A program made the translations under genes and the position numbers. From assembly GCA_021272315.1 (NCBI GenBank), contig JAJSLI010000033.1:1-64000 (forward strand): a stretch of DNA of 64,000 nucleotides, in the 5' to 3' direction. Within the stretch, counting starts at the first letter, position 1. The number at the start of each line of letters is the position of its first letter. The notes under the pieces are model-generated. The model saw nothing but the letters and a program-made list of their open reading frames with translations, had not been told where the DNA came from and searched no databases. Positions 20,457 through 34,645 of the stretch are shown one piece after another. Source of the DNA: Methylacidiphilales bacterium (GTDB taxonomy: Bacteria; Verrucomicrobiota; Verrucomicrobiia; Methylacidiphilales; UBA1321).

Positions 20457-21674
20457 TCACTCGCCGATGACGTTGCCGAGCGGAACCCAGTCCTTAGCGT
20501 TGAATTGGATGAGATAAAGTTGCTTGATCGGTTGATAATCGGTCGGACTCGTCGTGATGCGGATTCCGGGACGGAGCATCCCCAGTTCCAAATCGAGGTG
20601 CATGGCCTGATTTAGGACGTTTTCGCGCGTTAGTTCATCACCGCATTTCTTCAGGACTTCAACGGTCGTCTGCGCGACTTCATAGCCATACACATAATTG
20701 GCATCGCGAAGGCTCGCTTCCGGATTGTACTTGTTCATCCAGTCGAGAAATTCACGCACGGCGGGGTCACTTTGGGATCGCGGGCTCAGCCAGCCTTTGG
20801 AGCGGGCACTGGTAATGATTCCGACGGCTTTTTCCAAACCTGCCGGTTCCAGGAAAGAAGAAATGGAAAGGGACGCATTTGGGATGAACTGGAGCGGATG
20901 CCAGTCGATGTCGTAAGCCTCGCGTATTGCCCGCGTCGCAAACCTGCCCACCGCCAGATTCATGAAGACATCGGCGCCCGAACTTTTAAGCGCTACGAGC
21001 TGTGTATCGATCGTCATTGGATCGGAATAAGCAAAGGGAACCTCCTTGATGATCATGGCCGACGCCTTGTCCCCAAGACCGTCGCGCAGGCCCTGAAGCC
21101 ACTCCTGATCGGACGGACCATCTGGATAGAGCACACCGATTTTCGCCTCAGGCTTGGTCTGCAAGATGTATCTGCCATAAATAGTTCCCTCCACTCGCTT
21201 GCTGGGCTGAAATCCCATCGTCCACGGGAAATGGGACGGATCGTTCAGCGACGCATCCGTTGACGCAACGAAGAGTTGCGGCACCTTCTGCTCGTTCATG
21301 TAGGGACGGATCGCCAGATTGACGGGAGCGCCCCAAATGCCGACGGTCAGCAGGACCTGCTCCTGTTCCACGAGCTGGCGGGCCAAGGCCACGGCTTTGC
21401 CGTTATCGGACCCGGAATCGAGGCTTACAAAGTTGATTTTGCGACCATTGATTCCGCCGAGATCGTTGATCATCTGAAAGTAGGCCGCCTCGGCGCGCCC
21501 GGTCGCGCCATATTCCGAGAACGACCCGGTGTAAGGCATGATGGTGCCGATCTTGATTTCGGTGTCTGTCGCGCCCGGATCGTACTTTTTTTGCGCCACG
21601 ACTGGCACGGCGGCAACCGCGAACGAAACCAGTATCGCCGCGTGAATTCGAAGAATGTGCGTGTGCCTGTTCAC
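20457..21674 (-). CDS. Orphan periplasmic branched-chain amino acid-type binding protein
   Basis: A periplasmic type I substrate-binding protein of the Leu/Ile/Val (LivJ) family, 405 residues. After a signal peptide (about 1-30, ending near VVAQ) comes IKIGTIMPYTGSFSEYG, the typical opening of the first lobe, then GGINGRKINFVSLDSGSD and an N-terminal-domain pattern through to YVYGYEVAQTTVEVLKKCG. The GTG at 21674 is the start because a GGGAGGAA ribosome site lies just before it; the longer frame from TTG at 21737 has none. No permease or ATPase genes accompany it, so it may act as a ligand sensor or serve a distant transporter. It follows the TIR-repeat gene by 131 bases on the same strand. 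Confidence 0.88.
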   Translation of the reverse strand: MNRHTHILRIHAAILVSFAVAAVPVVAQKKYDPGATDTEIKIGTIMPYTGSFSEYGATGRAEAAYFQMINDLGGINGRKINFVSLDSGSDNGKAVALARQLVEQEQVLLTVGIWGAPVNLAIRPYMNEQKVPQLFVASTDASLNDPSHFPWTMGFQPSKRVEGTIYGRYILQTKPEAKIGVLYPDGPSDQEWLQGLRDGLGDKASAMIIKEVPFAYSDPMTIDTQLVALKSSGADVFMNLAVGRFATRAIREAYDIDWHPLQFIPNASLSISSFLEPAGLEKAVGIITSARSKGWLSPRSQSDPAVREFLDWMNKYNPEASLRDANYVYGYEVAQTTVEVLKKCGDELTRENVLNQAMHLDLELGMLRPGIRITTSPTDYQPIKQLYLIQFNAKDWVPLGNVIGE

Positions 21675-21805
21675 GGCTTCCTCCCGGTTATCATCATCCC
21701 GCTTCGCGTTGAAAATGACGGTTGGCGTATCCGCCAACTTTACGAATTTTCATCCTTTTGACAATTGCCCAAATTGTCCGGGCCGCGGCCGCCTCGCGAC
21801 GATGA

Positions 21806-24800
21806 TTATGGAATGGGGACAAGTTGACCGTTCGTGTCGAAACGGTCGGTTTTGATGATCTTGCCGGTCGCATCATAAGTGTAGACGATGCGGCACGCGC
21901 CTCCAATTTCGACCGGCCGGCCATCGGCACCAAAGCAGGCCCCCTCGATGATGCGGCCACGCTCGTCATACTTGAAGGTCTCTCTGGCAAAGCCCGCATT
22001 GCCAAGCACCGGACGGCCATCGACGCCGAAGCAGGCCCCTTCGATTATGCGGTCGCGCTCGTCATATTTAAAGGTCTCCCTGGCAAAGCCGTCTTTGTCG
22101 AGTACCGGCTGGCCATCAACACCAAAATAGTCAGCTTCGATCTTATTGCCCCGTGCGTCATACTTGACCGTCTCTTTGGCAAAGCCCTCTGCGCCAAACA
22201 TCGGCTGGCCGTCGACATCGAAATAGTCGGCTTCGATGTTATGGCCCTGTTCATCATACTTGAACAGCGCCATGGCAACACCGTCTTTGCCGAGCACCAG
22301 CTGGCCATCGACGCCGTAACAGGCCGCTTCAATGACGTTGTCGTGCTCGTCATACTTGAATGTTTCTTTGGCAAGGCCGTTTTTATCGAGTACCGGCCCG
22401 CCATCGATGCCGAAGCAGGCCGTCTCGATGACATTGCCTCGCTCGTCATACTTGAAAGTTTCCTTGGCAAGACCGTTTTTATCGAGCACCGGCCCGCCAT
22501 CGATGCCGAAGCAGGCCGCCTCAATGACGTTGCCGCGCTCGTCATACTTGGCCGTCAATTTGGCAGCGCCGTCTTTGTTACACACCGGCTTGCCCTCGAC
22601 ACCGAAGTAGGATTGCTCGATGACGTTGCCCCGCTGGTCATACTTGTCCGCTTCTTTGGCAAAGCCGTCTTTGTTGAACACCGGCTTGCCATCAACGCCA
22701 AAATAGTCCGTTTCAATTTTATTACCCTGCTCATCATATTTAAAAACTGCTTTGGCAACGCCCTCCTTGTCGAGCACCGGTCGGCCATCGACGCCGAAGC
22801 AAGCCGTCTCGATGACGTTGCCGCGCTCGTCATACTTGGCCGTCAATTTGGCAGCGCCGTCTTTGTCGGACACCGGCTTGCCCTCAACGCCGAAATAGGA
22901 CTGCTCAATGACGTTGCCCCGTTGATCATACTTTAGAGTCTTTTTGGCAAGGCCCTCTTTGTCGATGACCGGTTGGCTGGTAACATCAAAGTAGTCCTCT
23001 TCGATTTTATTACCCTGTTCGTCATACTTGAACGTTACTTTGGCAACGCCATCCTTGCCGGGCGCCAGCCGGTCATCGATATCGAAGCGCGCCCGCTCTA
23101 TGATATTGCCTCGCTCGTCATATTTGTCCGTCTCTTTGGCAAGGCCGTCATTGTTGAATACCGGCTTGTCCTCAACGTCAAAATAGTCGGCTTCGATTTT
23201 ATTGCCCTGCTCATCATATTTGAAAACCGCCTTGGCAACGCCCTCTTTGTCGAACACCGGTCTGCCATCGACGCCGAAACAGGCCGTCTCGATGACGTTG
23301 CCGCGTTCATCATACTTGGCGGTTAATTTGGCAACGCCCTCTTTGTCAAACACCGGCCTGCCCTTGATGCCAAAACAGGCTGCTTCTATTTTATTGCCCC
23401 GCTCATCATACTTGAATACCGCTTTGGCAACGCCCCCTTTGTCGAGCGTCGGTCGGCCGACAGCGTCGAAGTTGTCTTCCTCGATTTTATTACCCCACTC
23501 ATCATACTTGGAAATGGCTTTGGCTACGCCATCTCGATCCGGCACCGGTCGGCCGTCGACACCGAAACAAGACTCCTCGATTGGGTTGCCAGAAGCATTG
23601 AAGGTCCAAATTTTAATCACCACGCCGCGTTTATCAGGCAACATTTTGCCATCCAACCCCAGATTTGAAATTTTGATCGTGAGCCCCGATGGGGCATATC
23701 CAAAGTACCTGCCAAAAATACCCTCGCTGTTGGGTCTCTGAGTGGCGCTGCTATTGCTGTATTGGACGCGCGCTATTCGTCCCTCGGCAGAGTAGTCTAT
23801 AACTTCACCCCTGATGTCTGATTTGGCGTTCGTCCCGCTCTCTTTGTCGTGGGAACCCCGACTCAAAAGAGAGAAGTCATCAGCCAAGGCGGCTTGGACG
23901 TTTTGGTCATGACGCTCAAAAACTATCCAATGACGCTTGCCCCCTGTGCTATCGCTGCCGGGCAGATCGCTGTAGGTTTCCCGAAACACTTCGCGCCCGC
24001 CATGGTTCAGGTAGGTGATAAAATCGACGTTACCGTTTTTCCGATAGTGGATTTCCTCCGTGGAAGCATCGTGTCTGTCGGGATCATCCACCGGATAGCC
24101 GGAGCCGTTGATTTCCATCATCCGCCGGACCTTGCCTCGGCTCGACTCGATTTGGTAACTGGTGGTCCGATGCTGTACTTTGTCGTAAGATAACTTTTCA
24201 ATCCCCTCCGGCACACTGTAGCGAGTGCTGATTTGCTGATAATAAGCGGTCTGAATACGGGTGTGGTCCCACCACCAAAAGGCGACACCCAGGCAGAAAA
24301 GAGCCGCCAAGCCCAGCCCGATGAAGCCTGCCGCAGCCTTGAGCGAAGAATGGGCCTTGCCGGAATTGCCGGTACGCAGGTCGCCCACAATCAGTTCGGC
24401 CCGTTCTTTGGTCAATCGGCCACGCTCATCCACCTTATAGCGCAAGGCCGGCGCGAAACATTCCATCTCCTGATCGGCAGCTTGGCCGCTTGCATTCGGC
24501 ACACCCGCGGCAACAATTGCCAAAATGCGGTCCGCCCGGCCCAAGGATTTAAAGTAGCGTATTTCTTCGTTGACCCAAATGGATTTGGCGGAATTCGGGG
24601 TGCAAATAACGATCAGGTAACCGGAAGCGCGCAGAGCATTGACGGTGGCGGCAAGATCTGAAACGGGCCGCAGCTCGCCACAATCACGGTAGCAGGGGAA
24701 GAATTTCTCCGGCATTGGCCCCTCACTTCCGGCCTGTCCCACGAGGCCACTCGAAATGGCGTAGGTTTCCAAACGGCGAAAAAGCCGTTTATTCAGGGCG

Positions 24801-24865
24801 ACGTCCTTCGAGGAGGAGGAGATAAAGGCCCAGTAACGATACTCTGTCGCGGGGGTCTCATTCAT
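21806..24865 (-). CDS. TIR domain-transmembrane-tandem repeat protein, receptor-like
   Basis: A 1019-residue protein. Residues 10-125 form a TIR domain of the bacterial TIR_2 type: WAFISSSSKD, FFPCYRDCGEL, YLIVICTPNSAKSIWVNEEI (E100/E101 in the place of the TIR NADase glutamate) and RILAIVAAGVP. A single membrane segment follows at 178-199 (FIGLGLAALFCLGVAFWWW). Next is a 200-residue region of unknown fold, then 18 tandem 32-residue repeats plus a half repeat to the C-terminus, with consensus KYDERGNxIExxxFGVDG then RPVxDKDGxAK. The predicted topology is TIR in the cytoplasm and repeats outside. The ATG at 24865 is preferred over a TTG at 24886. It lies 127 bases after the LGFP gene on the same strand. 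TIR enzymes cleave NAD+ or make signalling nucleotides; activity here is inferred. Confidence 0.85.
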   Translation of the reverse strand: MNETPATEYRYWAFISSSSKDVALNKRLFRRLETYAISSGLVGQAGSEGPMPEKFFPCYRDCGELRPVSDLAATVNALRASGYLIVICTPNSAKSIWVNEEIRYFKSLGRADRILAIVAAGVPNASGQAADQEMECFAPALRYKVDERGRLTKERAELIVGDLRTGNSGKAHSSLKAAAGFIGLGLAALFCLGVAFWWWDHTRIQTAYYQQISTRYSVPEGIEKLSYDKVQHRTTSYQIESSRGKVRRMMEINGSGYPVDDPDRHDASTEEIHYRKNGNVDFITYLNHGGREVFRETYSDLPGSDSTGGKRHWIVFERHDQNVQAALADDFSLLSRGSHDKESGTNAKSDIRGEVIDYSAEGRIARVQYSNSSATQRPNSEGIFGRYFGYAPSGLTIKISNLGLDGKMLPDKRGVVIKIWTFNASGNPIEESCFGVDGRPVPDRDGVAKAISKYDEWGNKIEEDNFDAVGRPTLDKGGVAKAVFKYDERGNKIEAACFGIKGRPVFDKEGVAKLTAKYDERGNVIETACFGVDGRPVFDKEGVAKAVFKYDEQGNKIEADYFDVEDKPVFNNDGLAKETDKYDERGNIIERARFDIDDRLAPGKDGVAKVTFKYDEQGNKIEEDYFDVTSQPVIDKEGLAKKTLKYDQRGNVIEQSYFGVEGKPVSDKDGAAKLTAKYDERGNVIETACFGVDGRPVLDKEGVAKAVFKYDEQGNKIETDYFGVDGKPVFNKDGFAKEADKYDQRGNVIEQSYFGVEGKPVCNKDGAAKLTAKYDERGNVIEAACFGIDGGPVLDKNGLAKETFKYDERGNVIETACFGIDGGPVLDKNGLAKETFKYDEHDNVIEAACYGVDGQLVLGKDGVAMALFKYDEQGHNIEADYFDVDGQPMFGAEGFAKETVKYDARGNKIEADYFGVDGQPVLDKDGFARETFKYDERDRIIEGACFGVDGRPVLGNAGFARETFKYDERGRIIEGACFGADGRPVEIGGACRIVYTYDATGKIIKTDRFDTNGQLVPIP
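21809..23605 (-). repeat. 96-bp tandem repeats (18 full copies) within the TIR gene
   Basis: In-frame 32-codon units with recurring KYDERGN. Two subtypes alternate: one reads N(V/K)IE-ACFG and the other NKIE-DYFD. Copies 12 and 13 are nearly identical in protein (one Ala/Thr change) and close in DNA, and copies 8-10 repeat the subtype order of copies 3-5. This shows expansion by unequal recombination. The YD-x-x-GN core is reminiscent of RHS/YD repeats, but the 32-residue period is longer. Confidence 0.93.
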
Positions 24866-25012: not shown

Positions 25013-26017
25013 TCAAAGACATCGGATGCATGCAACAATTACGGCAACAATTCCCATGATTAGTGCAGCGTATGAGATAAGCCTTGTTCGCCGAATTTGC
25101 CCCATGGATTTGACATCATTCAGCACTTTTGAAAGCAGCGCCCTGGAAAGTTCTTGCTCTGCCTGCGATGTTTTCGATTGGAGCGTAACGACCTCATCGC
25201 GCAAACTTATAATGTTATTTTTCATGCCTGAAAGACTTTCATCTGCCTGTACAGTTCCCGTCTGAAGCGCCTCGATACCATCGCGCAAATTCATCATTTC
25301 ATCCAACAGTCGACATTCGCTCTGAGTCAGCAATTTTGTGGTCTGGGTCGAGCTTTCAACAATTCCCTTCACCTTTTCATGAAGTTCCACAACTTGCGCT
25401 CTAAGCAATTCGTTGATTTTGTCCCGATCTTCTCCCAAGCGGGCTTTTTTTGATATTTTTGATCTACTATAATTAGGAAGAGCCTTGCCAAGCTTCGGAA
25501 TATAGTATTGCCCGGCTTTCAACCAAATCCATACATCTGATTCTTTGGGCGGCTGGATGTTTTGCCACCAGGTAATGCAACCATGCTCGAATTTCGACCA
25601 GCGCCCAAGTTTTTCAAAATCGCTGTGAATTATTTCTTTATCCAGCCATAGGCCCAATTCAAATTCCGGATAGGTCCACTTAATATAATCGGTCGGCAAC
25701 ATGTCCCAGAGATCATACGCAGCCCAGTCCATTTCATCAGAAATAGGGTATCCCAAGGGTCCCGCTTCCCAGCCGCTCTGAGACCACTTTTCTCGTATAG
25801 GGCCATGTGTTTCATAGGCCCCGCCGGCGGGATTCCAATGAATGGATCCATGCGTAAAACCACGGTATTTCCCAATTCTATCGGGACAATAATTCTCAGA
25901 CTCAAGTGGAGAACCTAAAAAACCAGATGGCCCGCCAAGAGAGCTATATTTATCCTCTATGCTGCAGGCGCACACGCAGTTGATTTTTAGCAAGAGTCGG
26001 TTTTGCGGCAAGTTCAT
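25013..26017 (-). CDS. Tail-anchored LGFP-repeat and coiled-coil protein
   Basis: A 334-residue protein. The N-terminal half holds LGFP-type repeats: LGGPSGFLGSP (27-37), HGSIHWNPAGGAYETHGPI (56-74), GPLGYPISDE (86-95), then a more diverged pair around FEKLGRWSKFEHGCITW (134-150). Residues about 195-300 are heptad-rich coiled coil. A single membrane segment (313-332, LISYAALIMGIVAVIVACI) ends two residues before the C-terminus, so it is a tail-anchored protein without a signal peptide and its LGFP part probably faces the cytoplasm. LGFP repeats are better known from exported cell-wall proteins of Actinobacteria. Codon use is more AT-rich than the chromosomal background. Its start lies only 11 bases from the divergent O-antigen ligase-like gene. 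Function unknown. Confidence 0.75.
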   Translation of the reverse strand: MNLPQNRLLLKINCVCACSIEDKYSSLGGPSGFLGSPLESENYCPDRIGKYRGFTHGSIHWNPAGGAYETHGPIREKWSQSGWEAGPLGYPISDEMDWAAYDLWDMLPTDYIKWTYPEFELGLWLDKEIIHSDFEKLGRWSKFEHGCITWWQNIQPPKESDVWIWLKAGQYYIPKLGKALPNYSRSKISKKARLGEDRDKINELLRAQVVELHEKVKGIVESSTQTTKLLTQSECRLLDEMMNLRDGIEALQTGTVQADESLSGMKNNIISLRDEVVTLQSKTSQAEQELSRALLSKVLNDVKSMGQIRRTRLISYAALIMGIVAVIVACIRCL

Positions 26018-26028
26018 TTTTTAGATTG

Positions 26029-27543
26029 ATGGCTGTGGTAAAGCCCGAATCCTTCCAACAGGTTTTGATTTTTTTTCCAATTGTTTTAGTCTGGTTTCCC
26101 GTGTCCGCGTTAAACTTGAAATATATCAGGCAGCGATATCGAGATGTCGTTGTTGAGCGGACTTTTTTTCAGACGCTGGCGCGGTATCTTTTGCTGGCTC
26201 TGCTTTTTTATGCCCCCTGGGCTTACGGCAGCACCCGTCCCACGTTGGTGAATATTCTTGATGATGGACTCCTGCTTTGCTTTGGGCTCCATCTTTCTAG
26301 CTTGGTTTTGGAAGGTCGATTTCCCCGCTATCCCCTCATTCCCACCGTTTGTCTTGCCCTGCTAGTTTTGCAGGGCTTGTGGATGTGCTTCAATGCGCGG
26401 TCTTATCTGGATGATGATTTTTGGGAGTTTGTTCCACTGATCCAACCTTTCCCTCATCTGCCTGGCACTTGGGATAAGGCTGCCAGTCTTTTCACGCTTA
26501 AAACTCTTTGCGCAATGACTGCGGCTTTTCTGGTGGCTTGCGATTTGATGGCCAATGAGATTTGGAAATTGCGGCTTTGGCGCACCATGGGAATAGCCGG
26601 CTGCTCGATTATCGTCTATGGACTGATTCAAAAGGGATTGGGCCCCGACTCAATTATATCGATGTACCAGGACCCGTACATTCTCCCGACATTTTTCGGG
26701 CCTTATCGTTATCACGCAAACGCGGGCGCGTATCTTAACCTTGTCTGGCCCGTTTTACTCTCCCTATTCATTCATAGCTGGCGCAAGGGTTATGCCTATG
26801 TGGAACGGGCCATCTGGTCATGTGCCCTGGTCATGGGCTTGGCGGCTTGTTTTGTCAACACCTCCAAAGCCGCCGCCGCCATTACGGTTTTGATGATGTT
26901 TGCCGCTGTTTTAAGTTTTGCCTCCTTCTTTCGAAACAATTTAATTCGATCACGTTATGCCGCACGAATTCTGACCGCCGCTTTCATTCTGGGTTTCGTC
27001 GCAATCTTAATTTACGGCGGCATCACCAACCAATTGCAAGGGCGCTGGGATAAGATGTTTAATCCAAACAATTCAAGTGATACCGAGGGTCGACTTTTGG
27101 TTTACGGGGCTTGTATCCGCATGATTCCAGAAGCGGGCTGGCTCGGCTTTGGTCCGGGCACTTTTTCGAGGGTGTTTCCCTTTCACACTCTCTATCTTGG
27201 AGATCAAATTAAAGGATTCTGGGTCTATGCCCATGAGGACTATCTTCAGACGGTGGTGGAATATGGCTACTTGGGGTCGCTCTTTTGGTCGGTCCTTTTA
27301 TTTGGGAGTATTATTATGGCGATCCTCCGGGGATTACGGTCTTCCCTAAGAACCCATGACCGCATCATTTATCGGACTGCCGGCCTGGCTTTGGGAGGCC
27401 TTGCTCTTCACAGTTTTGTCGATTTCCCCCTGCAAGTGGCTTCAATTCAGCTTTATGCCGTCATTTTCTTCGCTTATGCCTGGAGCACGGCGAACGACTC
27501 GAAACGGCTTCAAAATTCCCAGGAAATATTACAGCCCCGGTAA
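26029..27543 (+). CDS. O-antigen ligase/polymerase-family membrane protein (Wzy_C)
   Basis: A polytopic inner-membrane protein of 504 residues with about ten hydrophobic segments. A large periplasmic loop near the C-terminal third contains SSDTEGRLLVYGACIRM and GWLGFGPGTFSRVFP, then YAHEDYLQTVVEYGYLGS, the conserved H-x-D/E-x(n)-E-xG pattern of the Wzy_C (O-antigen ligase WaaL/polymerase) family. It would transfer or polymerise lipid-linked glycan at the periplasmic face. The ATG at 26029 is used; the upstream TTG is adjacent. It is the only plus-strand gene at this end of the polysaccharide locus and is convergent with the Wzc-like gene. Confidence 0.88.
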   Translation: MAVVKPESFQQVLIFFPIVLVWFPVSALNLKYIRQRYRDVVVERTFFQTLARYLLLALLFYAPWAYGSTRPTLVNILDDGLLLCFGLHLSSLVLEGRFPRYPLIPTVCLALLVLQGLWMCFNARSYLDDDFWEFVPLIQPFPHLPGTWDKAASLFTLKTLCAMTAAFLVACDLMANEIWKLRLWRTMGIAGCSIIVYGLIQKGLGPDSIISMYQDPYILPTFFGPYRYHANAGAYLNLVWPVLLSLFIHSWRKGYAYVERAIWSCALVMGLAACFVNTSKAAAAITVLMMFAAVLSFASFFRNNLIRSRYAARILTAAFILGFVAILIYGGITNQLQGRWDKMFNPNNSSDTEGRLLVYGACIRMIPEAGWLGFGPGTFSRVFPFHTLYLGDQIKGFWVYAHEDYLQTVVEYGYLGSLFWSVLLFGSIIMAILRGLRSSLRTHDRIIYRTAGLALGGLALHSFVDFPLQVASIQLYAVIFFAYAWSTANDSKRLQNSQEILQPR

Positions 27544-27549
27544 AGACGG

Positions 27550-29622
27550 TTACTTGCTCTCACCATATGCCTCTCCGTATTTGTATTTTCCGGAGTAGGA
27601 ATAGCCGTGGTATTCATCAATGCTCCATGAGGGAACACAATTATAAATAATTCCAACAGGCCTGGCACGGGCCATCTCCAAAAAGGAGAGAGCCCGTCGA
27701 ACGGCATGCCGGGACGTGCTTTCAGCTTTCACCACAAGGCATATGGTTTGAACATAAGGAGCAATAAGTCGAGTATCACAAACCAAGATGATAGGTGGTG
27801 AATCGACCACCACGCGGTCATATTTGAGCAAGGCGCCTTCCAGCGTTTCGATGAATCCTTTGCCGCTGAGGAATTCCGCAGGGTTTGGACATTTGCCCCC
27901 CGTAAGCATAATGTCAAGATTCTCGACAACATTCCTATGAACAACCTCGCTCAGATTCACGCCTTTTGCCACATGCTCGGTGAGTCCTGGTCGATTATTT
28001 TCCAAATGAAACCGTGTCGGCACCCCTGGACGACGCAAATCCGCATCGATCAGCAAGGTCTTCAATCCGTGCTGCGCCAGAGATACGGCGTAATTGCAAC
28101 TGGTAAAGGTTTTACCTTCACCGGGTAGGGCGCTGCTAAACAAAGTGATGCGACGATCTTCCTCCTTGCCCACGAGTTCCAGTGCCGCCCAGAGATTCCG
28201 AATATTTTCGGCGGCAATGCCGGAGGGGTCGTCTATCAGCACGATGTCCTCGTATCTTTTGTCACCTGACGGGAAATTGCCGTCGGCTTTAGCCTCTCGT
28301 CGGGGACGCTTGGCCGCATTCGACCTCGAAATGAGCGGGATGGTCGCGATGACGGGCAGGTCGGTAAACTGCTCAACGTCTTCTGCGCTGCTGAATGTGG
28401 AATCAAGACGCTGCAACAACATGACGACGGCCATGCCCAAAATAAACCCGCCAAGGATACCACTGCAAATGACGCTGGGCGGGTTGGGATAAACGGGATG
28501 TGCCGGCAGATTGGCCGGATCCACCACCTTCACTTCAATCGGGGCCGATTCCGTTTGCACATCCTCTTCGCGCATCTGTTTTAGAAGACCGTCAAAGAGA
28601 GCTTGTTCCGTATCGACCTCGCTCTGAAGCACACTCGTACGGGCTTCGACCAACTTGAGTTCCGAGGCAATCAGATCATCCTGCGACTCCGGTGTCTGTG
28701 AATTTTCATTTTGAGTCCAATACGCCGCTTCGGTCGGAGAACTGGCGATCACTTTTTTTATTTCCGCGTCAAACCCAAGCTTGAGGTCGGCCATCAGGGA
28801 ACGCGCTTGGATGAGTTTGGGGTGCGCTTCTAGGTAACGTTGGGACAAATCATCGACAACCTTCTGCTGGTCATCGACCCGCTGCTTTTGTCGAAGCGCT
28901 TCCTTATAAATTTCCAGTCCATCCGCAGACTTTTGTAGGCTGAGTTTGGTGCGATTCACCTCATCAAGCAAAAACGTTCTTTTGGCGCTCGACGTTCCGA
29001 TGTCGGTTTCCGCGCTTGACGCAATAAACTGGTTGACCACGCTCATCGCCAGCTTCTGCGCAGCCTCCGGAACGGGATTTTTCACGCTGACATCAATCAA
29101 TCGCGTTCCCCGTCGGAGGACTACGGAAGTTGCCGTTTGTATCTTGTTGGCCAACTCTTCGTTGGATGGGCGCGCAGCTCCCGAATCCTGGGCCGGAACA
29201 ATATTGGTATCTTGCAGGATGGCGGGATCGTTTGCCACTCGGTCATAGAGACTGTCCAACTTTAAACTTTGCGTGATGGTATTGAGAATGTCGTCACCCC
29301 TGAGATCGTCTTCACCGTTACTGGCATTGTTCGGGTTATAATCACGCTCTTCTTGCTGGGCTACCCGCAGAACAATTGTTGATTGATAAATAGGGGTGGC
29401 CTTCATCACGTAACCAATGGCAATAAGGAGGCCCGCTATGACAGAGAGACCGATGATCCAGAGGTGTCTGAAAACAAAATGAAATTTCGAGAGCAAGCTG
29501 CGCTCCGGCCGGATATCCGGTTGTTCCGGACTGTCCGCAATTTCCATTGCGGCGGGATCAGGTTCCGGGGATCCCGCCTTGGCGCGCGCCAAGGGCAAAT
29601 GATTTCGTTTGTTCAGGGCCAT
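27550..29622 (-). CDS. Wzc-like polysaccharide co-polymerase/tyrosine autokinase
   Basis: An inner-membrane protein of 690 residues controlling polymer length and export. A Wzz domain begins after the first membrane segment (about 52-72), followed by a long periplasmic coiled-coil region, then PAHPVYPNPP and a second membrane segment. The cytoplasmic BY-kinase domain has Walker A in SALPGEGKTF, Walker A' in TLLIDADLRRPG and Walker B in VVVDSPP. The C-terminus is a tyrosine cluster (YHGYSYSGKYKYGEAYGESK) for autophosphorylation. The ATG at 29622 comes one base after the upstream gene's stop codon, so translation is coupled with the Wza-like gene. Confidence 0.93.
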   Translation of the reverse strand: MALNKRNHLPLARAKAGSPEPDPAAMEIADSPEQPDIRPERSLLSKFHFVFRHLWIIGLSVIAGLLIAIGYVMKATPIYQSTIVLRVAQQEERDYNPNNASNGEDDLRGDDILNTITQSLKLDSLYDRVANDPAILQDTNIVPAQDSGAARPSNEELANKIQTATSVVLRRGTRLIDVSVKNPVPEAAQKLAMSVVNQFIASSAETDIGTSSAKRTFLLDEVNRTKLSLQKSADGLEIYKEALRQKQRVDDQQKVVDDLSQRYLEAHPKLIQARSLMADLKLGFDAEIKKVIASSPTEAAYWTQNENSQTPESQDDLIASELKLVEARTSVLQSEVDTEQALFDGLLKQMREEDVQTESAPIEVKVVDPANLPAHPVYPNPPSVICSGILGGFILGMAVVMLLQRLDSTFSSAEDVEQFTDLPVIATIPLISRSNAAKRPRREAKADGNFPSGDKRYEDIVLIDDPSGIAAENIRNLWAALELVGKEEDRRITLFSSALPGEGKTFTSCNYAVSLAQHGLKTLLIDADLRRPGVPTRFHLENNRPGLTEHVAKGVNLSEVVHRNVVENLDIMLTGGKCPNPAEFLSGKGFIETLEGALLKYDRVVVDSPPIILVCDTRLIAPYVQTICLVVKAESTSRHAVRRALSFLEMARARPVGIIYNCVPSWSIDEYHGYSYSGKYKYGEAYGESK

Positions 29623-29623
29623 T

Positions 29624-30271
29624 TTAGAAAATCCTCTGTCGAACCGTGATGGTATCGCCTGGTTGCACGTAAAACGGCTTGACCGTGCTGTCATGCGCCA
29701 GCTTTCTGGCATCGACCTCAAGAATTTCATCCTTGCCGTTGACTAATCGTCTTACGATGACGCGAAGATCGGCCAGATCGGTAAATCCACCCGCCAGCGC
29801 GATGGCCCCCAACAAATCCAAGCTCCCTTCCTGCGGAATTTCAATTTCGCCCGGCTTTTTAACTTCGCCCAGAATGGTGACCGTCTGTATGGCGTAACTT
29901 GAAACCGTGAGGGTTACCTGCGGATTTCTGATGAAGCGTTCGTCCACCAGCAGTCGGCGAATTTCCTCCGTCGCCTGTCCAATCGTCCTGCCCGCCAACG
30001 GCACAGCGCCCAAAAGAGGAAACCGGATGGTGCCGTTCTTTTCGATCCGCGTTTCCGTCGTCAAATCATCTTCCCCATAAACCGTGATTTTAACCACGTC
30101 GTCGCAACGCAGCAGCACGCCCTCATCGACACTGAGCATTCTCGGCTGACTTGCCTCCGGAAGAGATGGCGCGGAATTGGTACTTTGAGCGATAACCGAA
30201 GCAGCGGGGAAAAGATATGGCAAGGCGCAGAGAACTCTCAATGCCACATGGCCGATTCTTGTTTTGATCAT
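29624..30271 (-). CDS. Wza-like polysaccharide export protein
   Basis: A periplasmic/outer-membrane export protein of 215 residues with an N-terminal signal peptide (to about residue 28). It contains the Poly_export domain (VLLRCDDVVKITVYGEDDL, then GTIRFPLLGAVPLAGRT) and an SLBB domain (ILGEVKKPGEIEIP, then LLGAIALAGGFTDLADL), ending in FYVQPGDTITVRQRIF. It lacks the C-terminal transmembrane helix of E. coli Wza and is shorter, as is common in this type of cluster. No lipobox Cys is evident. With the downstream Wzc-like kinase and the upstream beta-barrel protein it would form the export channel. Confidence 0.9.
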   Translation of the reverse strand: MIKTRIGHVALRVLCALPYLFPAASVIAQSTNSAPSLPEASQPRMLSVDEGVLLRCDDVVKITVYGEDDLTTETRIEKNGTIRFPLLGAVPLAGRTIGQATEEIRRLLVDERFIRNPQVTLTVSSYAIQTVTILGEVKKPGEIEIPQEGSLDLLGAIALAGGFTDLADLRVIVRRLVNGKDEILEVDARKLAHDSTVKPFYVQPGDTITVRQRIF

Positions 30272-30323
30272 GATTCAAGCGGGAACCTAATTCAATTGAC
30301 CATGATTAGCAGGCTTAAAATCA

Positions 30324-30346
30324 GCATTCATTAAAAAAATAAATGC
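30324..30346 (-). other. Stem-loop between fecR-domain and wza-like genes
   Basis: GCATTTATT and AATGAATGC pair over nine positions (one T-G wobble) around a five-T loop. It lies in the 122-base gap downstream of the FecR-domain gene. No T-run follows the stem, so this may protect or process the transcript rather than end it. Confidence 0.35.
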
Positions 30347-30393
30347 CTGAGTCAACCCCTTGGACCTAGGCCCTCATTCTTGCGAGAGCAGGC

Positions 30394-31182
30394 TTATGTG
30401 GGGCCGGGGGGGCCGGGAGGGGCGGGAGGGGCGGGAGGAGCGCCCGTGCTACCGTTGGGGGACACCGTTTCGTTACTGGAAGTATTGGCCGGATTGCTAT
30501 TATTGCTATCGACCGGATTGATCGTGAAAGTGCCTCCACCGCCGCCGCCATTACTACCACCCCCAAGCGCGGCCACGATCTCAGCGATCTCGCCCTGGGA
30601 AAGTTTGCCTGTAACGATGGTGACTCCGTCCGGCGAAGTTGTGACCTGACCTCCGGGAACCAGAACGATTTTACCATTGGGAAGGGTTATCCGCACAACG
30701 CCGTCAACCGTCTCGACCGAAACACCGGCGCTGGGCGTAAAGCTGATCACCCAGTCCGTGCCGATAGCTTTCGACGTTCCCATTGGCGTCGCGACGCGAA
30801 AATCGGAGTTGCCATCATGCTTGGCCAAGTGGCAAAGAAGCTTCCCCTCCTTGAGGGTGAGCCTGATTTTGCGGGTCTTGACTCCACTCGCTGATTGCGA
30901 ATATTCGAGAGAGGAAATGACCACGTCAGTTCCCGGAGTGACGACCGTGGTTGCGCCCGGCATCAATTTCAAGAGGGCACTGCTGTCCGCGTTCGCATGG
31001 ACCAGGCTTCCAGTCGCGATGATATCGCCCGCCTTTATTCTTTTAGACTTTCCCGAGGAGTCGGTCGCATAGACGTTGCCGCTCACCTTGTCAACGGTGG
31101 CGGCGACAGTCTCGGCATGCAGCACAATCCCGGATGCGCCCAAAATTAGGAATAGAACCCAGATCGCGGATTTTAATTTCAT
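30394..31182 (-). CDS. Exported FecR-domain protein with Gly/Pro-rich tail
   Basis: A 262-residue protein with a signal peptide (about 1-23). Residues 30-170 resemble a FecR domain: VDKVSGNVYATD, ALLKLMPGATTVVTPGTDVVI, LKEGKLLCHL, DFRVATPMGTSKAIGTDWVI and VETVDGVVRITLPNG. The C-terminal 60 residues are low complexity: GGGSNGGGGGG, then an Asn/Ser-rich linker, then PPAPPAPPGPPGPT at the end. Here FecR is not paired with a FecI sigma factor. Such stand-alone periplasmic FecR proteins often occur in polysaccharide export clusters, perhaps binding the glycan or peptidoglycan; this role is inference. Confidence 0.85.
   Translation of the reverse strand: MKLKSAIWVLFLILGASGIVLHAETVAATVDKVSGNVYATDSSGKSKRIKAGDIIATGSLVHANADSSALLKLMPGATTVVTPGTDVVISSLEYSQSASGVKTRKIRLTLKEGKLLCHLAKHDGNSDFRVATPMGTSKAIGTDWVISFTPSAGVSVETVDGVVRITLPNGKIVLVPGGQVTTSPDGVTIVTGKLSQGEIAEIVAALGGGSNGGGGGGTFTINPVDSNNSNPANTSSNETVSPNGSTGAPPAPPAPPGPPGPT
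30400..30436 (+). other. Potential G-quadruplex in the 3' end of the FecR-domain gene
   Basis: At least seven runs of three or more G, separated by one or two bases, lie on the plus strand, which is the template strand of the gene. They encode the Pro-rich tail. The pattern satisfies the usual G3+N1-7 rule several times over. Confidence 0.5.
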
Positions 31183-31202
31183 AAGTTTATTATGTTTGGC
31201 GA

Positions 31203-32543
31203 CTAGTACGAAAACGAAGCCGAGACTCCAACTTGATTGTCAGTGAAGGAAAAGTTGCTAAAACTGGAGTCGTCCTTTTGGTATTTGTAGAAAATCGAAG
31301 CCTTCAGCCACGAATTGGGATCCCAGTCGAACCCGGTGGTCGCATAATAGTAGTCATCGTCGCGAGCCGGCCCGGTTAAATCGATGCCTGCGCCTTGATA
31401 ACTATCATTCTCGTATCCAAATCCGACATTATAATAAAATTTTTGGAGAAACCGTTGACGTCCGATGAGCGAAACGCTGGTGGCGATGTAATCCTGGCCG
31501 TAGAAATTGTAGGACGGGTCAAATTGACGCTGCCCGACTAATGTTATGTTTGTGTTGATAAAAGGCTGATAGGTCCCGGAAAGGGAAAACACCGGCTCAA
31601 CCGTATCCCCGGTAACTGATCCTGAATATTCACGGACTTCCGCTCCGGCGGACAGGTTAAAGGAAAGCTTTCCACTATAGAGATAGTTTACCCGGGCAAG
31701 CATCTGTTGGTAAGTTTGGCTGGGAGCCCCGTAGCCGAGATCCAGCCAACCAACCGTCGGACCGAAACCTATGCTTAACTTGGGATCGAGTTGATAGAGG
31801 AAATAGGCATCTGCGGCCCATTCGTTGCTGTAAGAAAATCCAGCCGTCTCATAGTCGGTAAGCGTTTGGGTAAAATCACCAATAACGGACAGCTTGTCGG
31901 AATAATTGTAGTCCGCTGATGCCTTGGTTACATAGACGCTGCTGGTCACCAGGTTGCCTGCTGCGGCGGAGGTGGCGCTTTCGCGCGCATAGGTCTGCTC
32001 CAGTCCCAAGGCAAGTTTGGAAAAGCGATACTGGTAGAGGAGGCCTGCTCTCTGGTTAAAGGAATCCTGTCCGGAGTGATCGGCGTATATGTCAACCGAA
32101 GGCGCATAGAAAATATCGAAATAACTTGCGTCGATGGCCTTGTCGTTGCCGATTTTGTATTCGCCCAAGAGACTTATTTGGGTGATGAAGTCTGAAACTT
32201 TGTTGGGCTGAACGAAAATGTTGTCGTCATAAACCTCAGATACGGTTGCTATGAACAGAATGGGCAAGTGTCCGCTTTCCATAAAGGGGGCGGAACTGGG
32301 GGAGGTTGTCGGAGCCAAGGCATTTGACGGGGAGGCGTAGGTTCCTGAAGGAGCCACGATGCCTTCTGGCGACGAATAGGTCCCTGAAGGCGCCGCGATG
32401 CCGGTACCTGTGTCTGGTACGTCCGCAAAGAGAGAAGAAAAGAAGCCAAGCAAGACACCGGAAACCAGGCAGGTCATTCCCCTGCGCCACGAGATCCCAA
32501 GACGGTGTTGGCCATTAATCATCCATTTGCTTGTTTTTTTCAT
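31203..32543 (-). CDS. Outer-membrane beta-barrel protein of the polysaccharide locus
   Basis: A protein of about 446 residues with a signal peptide ending near SLFA. A short low-complexity part follows with two copies of APSGTY(S/A)SP. The remaining 350 residues alternate in the pattern of beta-strands (VSEVYDDNIFVQPN, YRFSKLALGLEQTYARES, and so on) and end in VGVSASFSY, a C-terminal aromatic BAM recognition signal. It resembles the outer-membrane beta-barrel proteins found beside Wza/Wzc genes in exopolysaccharide clusters and may form or assist the outer channel. An AGGAG sequence favours the ATG at 32543 (9-base spacing) over one at 32549. Confidence 0.82.
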   Translation of the reverse strand: MKKTSKWMINGQHRLGISWRRGMTCLVSGVLLGFFSSLFADVPDTGTGIAAPSGTYSSPEGIVAPSGTYASPSNALAPTTSPSSAPFMESGHLPILFIATVSEVYDDNIFVQPNKVSDFITQISLLGEYKIGNDKAIDASYFDIFYAPSVDIYADHSGQDSFNQRAGLLYQYRFSKLALGLEQTYARESATSAAAGNLVTSSVYVTKASADYNYSDKLSVIGDFTQTLTDYETAGFSYSNEWAADAYFLYQLDPKLSIGFGPTVGWLDLGYGAPSQTYQQMLARVNYLYSGKLSFNLSAGAEVREYSGSVTGDTVEPVFSLSGTYQPFINTNITLVGQRQFDPSYNFYGQDYIATSVSLIGRQRFLQKFYYNVGFGYENDSYQGAGIDLTGPARDDDYYYATTGFDWDPNSWLKASIFYKYQKDDSSFSNFSFTDNQVGVSASFSY

Positions 32544-32597
32544 ATTCATTTTCTCCTCTGTCCGCCCGAAATTCAACCCTGCGGGGAGCTAGGTGAC

Positions 32598-32614
32598 CAC
32601 TCTTTTGAAGAGTG
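32598..32614. promoter_or_regulatory. Stem-loop in the leader of the beta-barrel gene
   Basis: CACTCTT-TTG-AAGAGTG is a perfect 7-bp stem in the gap between the WecA-like and beta-barrel genes, about 55 bases before the latter's start. On the plus strand it is followed by a T-run (catttttt). It could act as a leader hairpin or partial terminator. Confidence 0.35.
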
Positions 32615-32717
32615 TGCAAGCATTTTTTGGGCTTACTTTTCATCAGGGGGTGGTTTTGTTGATTTATCAGGCTGTTTTATTACGTAATACGTTTAAGAAC
32701 AATAAGATGCGATTTAT

Positions 32718-34292
32718 TCATTCGGTGAATTCGAGCTTGCGATCCAATGATTTTGGCCGTGCCGGGGCATACAAACGAACAAATTTCTTTTGCGGAGAAC
32801 TTCCAGGGATAGGAGCCTTCGATAGAAACTCCACCGGGGTCTTGTTTATCATCCACCAGCGTGAGGCGGCCTTGTACCAAGTTTCGGACGCCAAGTCGCT
32901 GAGCAGATCGAAGAGCATTTCCGACATGACTGTTTTATCCGCATCAAACTCAATCACCGTACCATGGTTTAGCTCATGGGAGCCATGGCGCATTTCGGCC
33001 GCCCTCTCTTGAAAATCCTCTGACTCCCAAATTTTGATGCCATCGGGCAGGACAAGCTTCACCCTCGAGAACCCGAGCTTGCAAACCACAAACTGGTAAT
33101 CCCGCCAAAGTTCTTCGACCGAGCCCTGTCTTTCGACTTCCATTTCGAGCCATCGGCTCAGGGTGAGCGCGTAGCGGGTTTCCTTCCGCAAGGCGAGTGA
33201 TTTACCCAGGCGACTACCGATTGTAAACCAGTTTCTAGTGTACCCGGAAAGATGGCCGGAAACGATCAAAACTAAAAAAAGCAACCCCGTGAAGAGAGGC
33301 AACAGGCGTCCTTGCCAGTAGAAAACGCTTAGGGCCAGAACCAGGCAAACCAAGGAAACCGTGTATAGGCTCAAAACAGCCCGTTCACGTGAAAATCCCA
33401 CGGTTATCAAATGGTGGTGAATGTGCTTCCTGTCCGGACGAAAAACAGGCAACCCGGGCAAACCGCGGCGCAGGACCGCAAGACTGGCGTCGACCAAGGG
33501 CAAAGCCAAGGCGAAGGTGGGTGCGATGAGGGCGGCGACCACCGTGCCCTTGTTAGAGTTTACAATTGAGAGGATGCCGATCAAAAAGCCGATAAAATAA
33601 GCGCCGCCGTCTCCCATGTAAATTTTGGCCGGGGGATAATTGAATTTGAGAAAGCCGAGCAAAGCTCCTGCGACGCCGACGGCCAGCAGCATGACAAAGC
33701 TTGAGTTGGCACTTCCCAGATTTGCCAGCAGGACCATCAACATGAGGCAGATACCGCCAGCCAGCCCGTCAATGCCATCGATCAGGTTGATCAGGTTCGT
33801 AAGCGTGACAAGCCATAAAACCGTGGCAATAAAACTAAAGACAACTCCCAAGGCAAGATCGGTCTCTGTAACCGGATTTTTTATAATCTCAATTCGGATG
33901 TCACTGAAATAAACGGCCGCGGCAATGGCAATTTGCGCAATTAATTTCCATTGGGCGCGCAGGGAGCGCAAATCATCCCAAAAACCAAGCGCAAACATGG
34001 CGAGTGAACTCAAGACAATAATGCCCAGGGTGGTCGCGCCGGATGAAGACGGTCTCTGCCAAAAATAGACGGCCAGAGCAACGACAACAAAGGCAAGAAC
34101 CAAGCCGACCCCTCCCAAGCGGGGCACCGTTGTCTGGTTGGCATGATGAAAATCTCTTCCACCCTGTGCGTTATCACGGGCGCTGAACCAATAACAAAGA
34201 ATATAGGAGATTGTGCCCCAGCAAATGCAGAATCCCAGGGCGAGAAAAACTGTTAGTTCCAACCAGTTGACGTGTGCGAATGATCCCATCAT
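32718..34292 (-). CDS. WecA/MraY-family lipid-phosphate sugar-1-phosphate transferase with C-terminal extension
   Basis: Initiates glycan synthesis by moving a HexNAc-1-phosphate from a UDP-sugar to undecaprenyl phosphate. The core (about 1-350) has around ten membrane segments and the family motifs: ALGFWDDL with the Asp pair, NLIDGIDGLAGG, YMGDGGAYFIG and PDRKHIHHHL (HxHHH). After the last membrane segment a soluble extension of about 175 residues follows that WecA lacks; it contains SRWLEMEVERQGSVEELWRD and KTVMSEMLFDLLSDL and is probably cytoplasmic. The ATG at 34292 is chosen because an AGGAG sits 7 bases upstream. It heads the minus-strand group beta-barrel, FecR, Wza, Wzc. Confidence 0.92.
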   Translation of the reverse strand: MMGSFAHVNWLELTVFLALGFCICWGTISYILCYWFSARDNAQGGRDFHHANQTTVPRLGGVGLVLAFVVVALAVYFWQRPSSSGATTLGIIVLSSLAMFALGFWDDLRSLRAQWKLIAQIAIAAAVYFSDIRIEIIKNPVTETDLALGVVFSFIATVLWLVTLTNLINLIDGIDGLAGGICLMLMVLLANLGSANSSFVMLLAVGVAGALLGFLKFNYPPAKIYMGDGGAYFIGFLIGILSIVNSNKGTVVAALIAPTFALALPLVDASLAVLRRGLPGLPVFRPDRKHIHHHLITVGFSRERAVLSLYTVSLVCLVLALSVFYWQGRLLPLFTGLLFLVLIVSGHLSGYTRNWFTIGSRLGKSLALRKETRYALTLSRWLEMEVERQGSVEELWRDYQFVVCKLGFSRVKLVLPDGIKIWESEDFQERAAEMRHGSHELNHGTVIEFDADKTVMSEMLFDLLSDLASETWYKAASRWWMINKTPVEFLSKAPIPGSSPQKKFVRLYAPARPKSLDRKLEFTE

Positions 34293-34645
34293 TTGTAATC
34301 TCCTGCCCGACATGAAAGGTGCTAACACGGCACTAGCCGGAAAGTTTTACTTCTTCAGCAAATTAAACAAGTTAAGATTTATCGCTAGCCAAAAATCATT
34401 AAGGTTTATTAGATTTTCAAAATGCGGCCATGCTGGCATAAAAGGATGATAGGGAAATGAACCGAGGCGCGAACAACGGACCTGCAGTGGCAGGAGGCAA
34501 GGCTAAGTGAGGAATGAGCAACGAAAAGCTCGGTCTAAATACCCTGAGCCTCCTTTCCAGACACCCCCTCAAGACATAGCCTTGACCGCTCCCCAGCGAC
34601 GGAAAACAATCACTTATGTCATCGTCCGCATCGCCGAAAAGCCTG
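34293..34645. other. Intergenic control region between wecA-like and nusG-like genes
   Basis: About 350 bases with no gene on either strand, AT-rich in its left half. It must hold promoters for two divergent units: the WecA-to-Wzc group on the minus strand and the NusG-like gene on the plus strand. I do not see an ops/JUMPstart-type element of the E. coli kind. Confidence 0.5.
34582..34610 (+). promoter_or_regulatory. Probable promoter of the nusG-like gene
   Basis: TTGACC (34582-34587) and AACAAT (34605-34610) are spaced by 17 bases. Transcription would begin near 34617, which makes the ATG at 34616 unlikely and favours the one at 34646. Confidence 0.45.

Follow-up and report, generated by a model that had tools for sequence, protein, structure and literature searches.

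Bacterial proteins with an N-terminal TIR domain, one membrane helix and C-terminal repeats are already known and common, and the closest described ones are the TIR-TM-WD40 and TIR-TM-TPR proteins, which also have a basic linker before the helix. We analyzed a gene with this order at positions 21806..24865, on the minus strand, of a 64,000-nucleotide stretch of DNA from a freshwater-type Methylacidiphilales bacterium (GenBank assembly GCA_021272315.1, contig JAJSLI010000033.1, positions 1 to 64,000), referred to below as the window. The window protein resembles these proteins in its TIR subfamily, N-terminal TIR, single helix and C-terminal repeats, but theirs are WD40, TPR or other repeats, and none has the ectodomain found here, a membrane-proximal domain with a VPEG motif followed by hairpin repeats of 32 residues. 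Judged on sequence, this ectodomain appears to define a new receptor family of its own. The order of TIR, helix and repeats, described in the original prediction as a mirror image of Toll receptors, is by itself unexceptional. A survey of TIR proteins (PMC7075850) mentions, in the part available, N-terminal TIR with TPR repeats and not the VPEG/repeat family. The literature search returned no description, in the text accessible to it, of RHS repeats with TIR and STAND; subscription journals lay mostly outside its coverage, and the novelty of the family is provisional.

Published conflict systems exchange TIR, Pkinase and nSTAND1 modules behind one type of sensor, as far as the accessible text of the reports goes (PMC10907252; also PMC7159879, PMC8195603). 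The family described here exchanges the same set of cytoplasmic modules, and one member (G1124) lies in an operon with TPR-S and TIR genes. The published sensors, according to the same partial text, carry a C-lectin/FGE domain, diversified by retroelements and often cytoplasmic, whereas the sensor here would be a hairpin ribbon that is probably periplasmic. Neither that text nor the literature search yielded a mention of such a ribbon.

Animal Toll and Toll-like receptors (TLRs) also have a cytoplasmic TIR domain, one helix and a long extracytoplasmic repeat array. In the window protein, unlike in these receptors, the TIR is N-terminal (type II) and the repeats are RHS/MORN-like rather than leucine-rich. 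The N-terminal leucine-rich repeats (LRR) or Ig domains and C-terminal TIR that define Toll/IL-1 receptors are absent from it, and we found no evidence for common descent of the whole receptor with Toll or TLRs. Thoeris ThsB is likewise a TIR protein with a candidate catalytic Glu, and the ThsB_TIR profile matched the window protein weakly (18.4 bits, below the cut-off of 21.2). However, ThsB itself is soluble and paired with ThsA, and the window receptor is neither; Pfam searches recognized no ThsA-like gene (SIR2/SLOG, macro or membrane effector) in the immediate neighbours or in ten other genes of the window.

The membrane-proximal domain and the exchange of cytoplasmic modules

The gene is an intact open reading frame of 1019 aa with zero internal stops, starting at the ATG at 24865; translation could also begin at an in-frame TTG (24886). 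All features of the protein lie on the minus strand. The TIR domain (24371..24844, residues about 8-165) is followed by a single membrane helix (24272..24340, residues about 176-198), a conserved membrane-proximal domain (23816..24268, residues about 200-350, ~150 residues) and the repeat array (21821..23809, residues about 353-1015). What had been taken for a 200-residue spacer is this membrane-proximal domain, which sits directly after the helix, has profile matches in two phyla and is shared with kinase and STAND receptors. Its signature, [YF]x8-VPEG-x3-L-x6-HR-x2-S[YW], lies at 24155..24241.

A hand-made degenerate DNA pattern of this signature, which occurred once in the window (0.00 expected by chance), was used to scan 84,980 species genomes. 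It gave 10 matches: eight family members and two chance matches, L081 (Streptomyces) and L087 (SAR202). Together, profile searches and the pattern scan indicated that Verrucomicrobiota and Bacteroidota have the ectodomain sporadically, in ~1% of genomes. It was present in 4 of 97 genomes of the Akkermansia-like family, 5 of 286 of the class (with the unique domain required and repeat-only matches excluded), 2 of 338 of the phylum-wide sample, 4 of 393 Bacteroidales (a fifth, marginal match was unconfirmed) and 2 of 296 Bacteroidota. The named records carrying the signature were metagenome-assembled genomes (MAGs) of Verrucomicrobia and of rumen Bacteroidales. In tblastn searches of plasmids, the membrane-proximal domain gave zero matches, and the full protein matched nothing beyond generic RHS proteins and, on separate records, TIR genes. 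The signature pattern gave no member among the viral contigs of IMG/VR.

The search for the same order of TIR, helix, domain and repeats elsewhere found eight complete proteins, the window one included, in eight genomes of two phyla. They belong to Verrucomicrobiota (window, G516, G509, G580, G301) and Bacteroidales (G634, G1017, G632). A ninth, probable TIR-type member (G495) is cut at a contig edge; this gene (L075 110-842) also has a frameshift in the membrane-proximal domain. A misassembled fusion of two genes was ruled out, given the same fusion in eight genomes and a 56-66% identical array in a congener (G007).

Other members carry the ectodomain behind different N termini. Two have a Ser/Thr kinase (L082 and L104; Pkinase 147-153 bits), and FHA and PP2C genes neighbour both; these were tested with Pfam in L104 and judged by eye from the sequence in L082. 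Two have nSTAND1 (G1124, 318 bits; G632, 91 bits, plus a C-terminal PDZ). G563 and G589 lack a TIR and have a bare signal anchor and a C-terminal PDZ, and G876 has a multi-helix N terminus. The same sensor therefore occurs with TIR, Pkinase, nSTAND1 or no effector. A tree of the membrane-proximal domain (15 sequences) requires at least four changes of effector. Its support is modest, with few strongly supported branches, and the nSTAND1 members form long branches, so the exact number of swaps is uncertain. In these nSTAND1 members the domain is recognizable but divergent (hhalign E 4e-6 and 6e-5), and the fit to its profile is only moderate (hhalign probability 65-87), which, like their long branches, weighs against the reading as a modular receptor family.

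The G1124 receptor lies in an operon that encodes a TIR protein, the receptor, an abhydrolase-TPR-S protein and a MAP3K_TRAF_bd-TPR-S protein. This gene order is that of the Bacteroidota operon at L134 626-8040 (TIR protein, nSTAND1-helix-repeat receptor, alpha/beta hydrolase-TPR-S, MAP3K_TRAF_bd-TPR-S). In the kinase receptor of L104, an in-frame TAG (2570-2572) splits the gene within the repeats into frames of 718 and 506 aa; this is a pseudogene, an assembly error or strain variation.

The repeat array and the TIR domain

The canonical 32-residue register spans about residues 417 to 1015, or 18.7 units, close to the 18.5 originally counted, and degenerate units precede it. The repeat consensus is KYDERGNVIEAACFGVDGRPVLDKDGVAKETF. 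At the DNA level, Tandem Repeats Finder (TRF) reported an array at 21912-23458 with a period of 96 nt and 16.1 copies, and higher-order periods of 192 and 288 nt. The pN/pS between repeat units was 0.40 (13 units). The repeats are under purifying constraint at the protein level; this ratio and the higher-order periods point to an array that was expanded by duplication yet maintained as protein.

An AlphaFold2 (AF2) model of residues 200-620, made with a 13-sequence alignment, had a pLDDT of 86.5 and a pTM of 0.83. It shows a two-stranded hairpin each 32 residues, a period that begins already at about residue 353. Foldseek matched the model to RHS, teneurin and other YD-repeat shells with E down to 1e-13 and a TM-score of only 0.1-0.4, so the likeness to these shells is a local one. 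Further matches were to OspA and to viral MORN-repeat models. The strand pattern, together with this poor overall fit to closed shells, leads us to predict that the hairpins form a single continuous extended ribbon. Profile matches agreed in kind: RHS_repeat scored 48.6 bits (cut-off 22) and the YD repeat profile TIGR01643 60.9 bits (cut-off 15.8). The array shares with RHS/YD and MORN_2 repeats the YDxxGN hairpin motif and the local 3Di match, but differs in its strict 32-residue period and its predicted extended ribbon with neither shell nor toxin. Sequence searches of the PDB gave nothing with the single window protein and one meaningless weak match with the ectodomain profile.

The RHS and YD profile matches and the local likeness to RHS shells are what would be seen if the protein were a secreted, RHS-type polymorphic toxin, with the N-terminal TIR as cargo or marker. 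We rejected this explanation as very improbable. Pfam found neither an RHS core nor a toxin at the C-terminal end, the array runs to the C terminus with no further domain or variable tip, its period is 32 rather than about 20 residues, and the global fit to RHS shells is poor. In addition, the N-terminal domains of the family are signalling modules, separated from the repeats by a membrane helix.

The TIR domain of the window protein scored 20.3 bits with Pfam TIR_2, under the curated cut-off of 28, with its best stretch at residues 59-118. Seven relatives with the same architecture exceed this cut-off (35-51 bits), and homologues 33-52% identical over the TIR domain score 44-51 bits. The window TIR is 51-52% identical to those of G516 and G509 and 42-48% identical to those of same-class TIR-helix-repeat proteins (residues 1-199), and the TIR of G301 is divergent (35 bits, 25% identity to the window TIR). 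The AF2 model of the window TIR (pLDDT 82) matched the TLR15 TIR domain best in a Foldseek search of the PDB (E 5e-5), with further matches to the TIR domains of MAL, SPARTA, plant RPP1, L6 and RUN1, and AbTir. A TIR profile search of PDB sequences led to plant TNL and bacterial TIR proteins. Despite the low Pfam score, the TIR assignment stands because of the higher-scoring homologues and the fold match, and the modelled N-terminal domain has the TIR fold.

Glu101 (codon 24563..24565) is the second Glu of W97-V-N-E-E101, that is, the Glu of the WxxxE motif, which agrees with the catalytic position proposed at 100/101. It is the candidate catalytic residue and is kept in 8/8 TIR members with the VPEG/repeat ectodomain; in G1017 the Trp is replaced by Tyr. 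The original prediction held that homologues without helix or Glu would count against it; the helix is retained in the relatives, and this Glu in those that have a TIR.

The TIR might instead be a non-catalytic scaffold that recruits partners through TIR-TIR contacts, like the animal Toll adaptors. The divergence of the window TIR below the Pfam cut-off, the change of the box 1 Tyr (SSSS instead of SYSH), the YRDCGELR found where relatives have FRDRDELP, the best structural match to a TLR and the further TIR genes beside relatives all fit such a scaffold. The retained WxxxE Glu and the YLIVICTPNSA..WVNEE block around it speak against a scaffold, which we regard as rather unlikely.

Membrane topology

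The helix has a Kyte-Doolittle hydropathy of 2.22, and the rest of the 1019-aa protein never exceeds 1.5, which agrees with the one clear helix originally described. In 11 of the 14 members a helix above threshold ends shortly before the VPEG motif; in G516, G509 and G563 the corresponding helix scores just 1.3-1.4. The flank on the inside has a net charge of +3 to +6 across members and the one on the outside -2 to +2; in the window protein the values are +3 (N side) and 0 (C side).

The N terminus of the kinase and nSTAND1 relatives would be inside, since kinase and NTPase domains need cytoplasmic ATP. PDZ domains, which are common in envelope proteases, sit at the far C-terminal end of some members, and a paralogue in the same genome has related repeats behind what reads as an N-terminal signal peptide. 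Together with the positive-inside bias, these concordant lines make it very likely that the N terminus is in and the C terminus out, with the repeats in the periplasm. The receptor layout proposed earlier, with TIR inside and repeats outside, thereby gains strong independent support from sequence. One point weighs against it: the inside flank of the window protein is weak (3 K/R). This is due to the loss of the basic linker of the relatives, as the segment between TIR and helix is ~24 residues shorter and lacks their basic cluster. A cytoplasmic WD40-like scaffold was considered and rejected.

Since these are Gram-negative phyla and the protein would lie in the inner membrane, "outside" means the periplasm, and the surface events first proposed would be sensed there, barring a ribbon that extends to the outer membrane. 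A role as sensor is supported.

At L002 736-2913 (C155), the same genome encodes a repeat protein that is exported and ends in a multi-helix domain. Proteins of this type are conserved across five or more species of the genus (further cases are L011, L012, L013 and L016).

Genomic surroundings and possible signalling role

Of the bacterial TIR and STAND immune proteins characterised so far, most are known to do their sensing within the cell. The window protein is probably a type II receptor in the inner membrane, part of a modular surveillance family, and would sense outside the cytoplasm and signal by its TIR. The TIR would be cytoplasmic, one helix would cross the membrane, and the VPEG domain and the RHS/MORN-like hairpin ribbon would lie in the periplasm, where they may sense a ligand or damage, possibly via the adjacent periplasmic binding protein described below. 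Ligand binding or envelope perturbation would cluster the receptors, and the clustered TIR domains would self-associate and consume or cyclise NAD+ through Glu101, resulting in a signal or in growth arrest. The finding of one ectodomain with exchanged outputs argues for a shared input; the outside module would read one kind of signal while lineages exchange TIR, Ser/Thr kinase and nSTAND1.

If so, bacteria build Toll-like membrane surveillance through module swapping. The shared ectodomain would also allow binding to be studied once and the signal to be read in the output that is easiest to assay, and the kinase versions, which come with PP2C and FHA partners, offer a practical route to finding the ligand.

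The receptor gene is the middle one of a minus-strand run of three genes. Upstream (25013..26017, minus strand) is a gene for a 334-aa protein that combines an LGFP domain (72 bits) with a coiled coil and ends in a membrane helix; it showed no signal peptide. Its GC3 is 0.46, against 0.54-0.68 around it, and no relative was found in the 19 related genomes searched, so it was probably acquired. The LGFP protein is a possible partner of the receptor. Downstream (20457..21737, minus strand), 68 bp from the receptor, is a gene for a Peripla_BP_6 periplasmic binding protein (171.6 bits). No transporter genes were recognized among the neighbours examined, and no close relative of the binding protein was found in congeners. 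It might be a ligand-binding, LuxP-like partner of the receptor.

The run adjoins the edge of an exopolysaccharide block (26026-34328) with Wzy, Wzz-kinase, Poly_export, porin-like and Glycos_transf_4 genes, conserved in congeners. G002, G003 and G005 have the core of this cluster without the three-gene receptor block, so the block is accessory.

These neighbours bear on the signal that is sensed. The receptor could be an envelope-stress or nutrient/glycan sensor whose TIR output tunes physiology without killing the cell, and we give this account a tentative place. It is in keeping with the flanking exopolysaccharide genes, the orphan Peripla_BP_6 gene, the position of the G509 receptor directly after an operon that reads (by eye) as a peptide transporter, and the PP2C and FHA genes beside the kinase relatives, which resemble housekeeping signalling. 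However, the conservation of the exopolysaccharide block in congeners without the TIR block makes that link positional, other members have unrelated neighbours, and an nSTAND1 relative lies in an operon with TIR and TPR-S genes of the type usual in conflict systems.

The company of TPR-S, TIR and nSTAND1 favours a role in conflict, and that of PP2C and FHA and the exopolysaccharide setting allow a physiological one. A more specific proposal is that the periplasmic ribbon, changing fast in repeat number and sequence, detects an invader such as a phage at injection before it reaches the cytoplasm, with swappable outputs, which would make the family a genuine bacterial equivalent of cell-surface pattern-recognition receptors; this we consider doubtful. 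Several observations weigh against surveillance as defence. The neighbours examined included no known effector that would read out a TIR product, PADLOC gave only weak ThsB-like or unrelated matches, and known defence genes were not seen clustered into an island. With no member found by the pattern in IMG/VR either, a defence role would rest on domain logic, and the family may equally be a sensor of envelope stress or glycans.

Some relatives have further signalling or repeat genes beside them. The G580 TIR receptor adjoins a cyclase-like TPR gene and a TIR-WD40 gene, and that of G632 adjoins a TIR-WD40 gene. The grouping described for G580 is that of the three genes at L077 72-6492, for a TIR receptor, a TPR protein with a cyclase-like C terminus and a TIR-helix-WD40 protein. 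A secreted-looking relative follows directly after the G632 nSTAND1 receptor. Such a pair is seen at L108 1273-8143, where the gene immediately after an nSTAND1-helix-repeat-PDZ receptor encodes a protein that looks secreted, with repeats of the same type and PDZ-like ends; L109 may hold another pair like it. The gene just upstream of the TIR receptor of G1017 (L106 4435-5880) encodes a 481-aa membrane protein with no Pfam match. In G007, of the same genus as the window, the array is cut by the contig end and has what reads as a transaldolase gene next to it.

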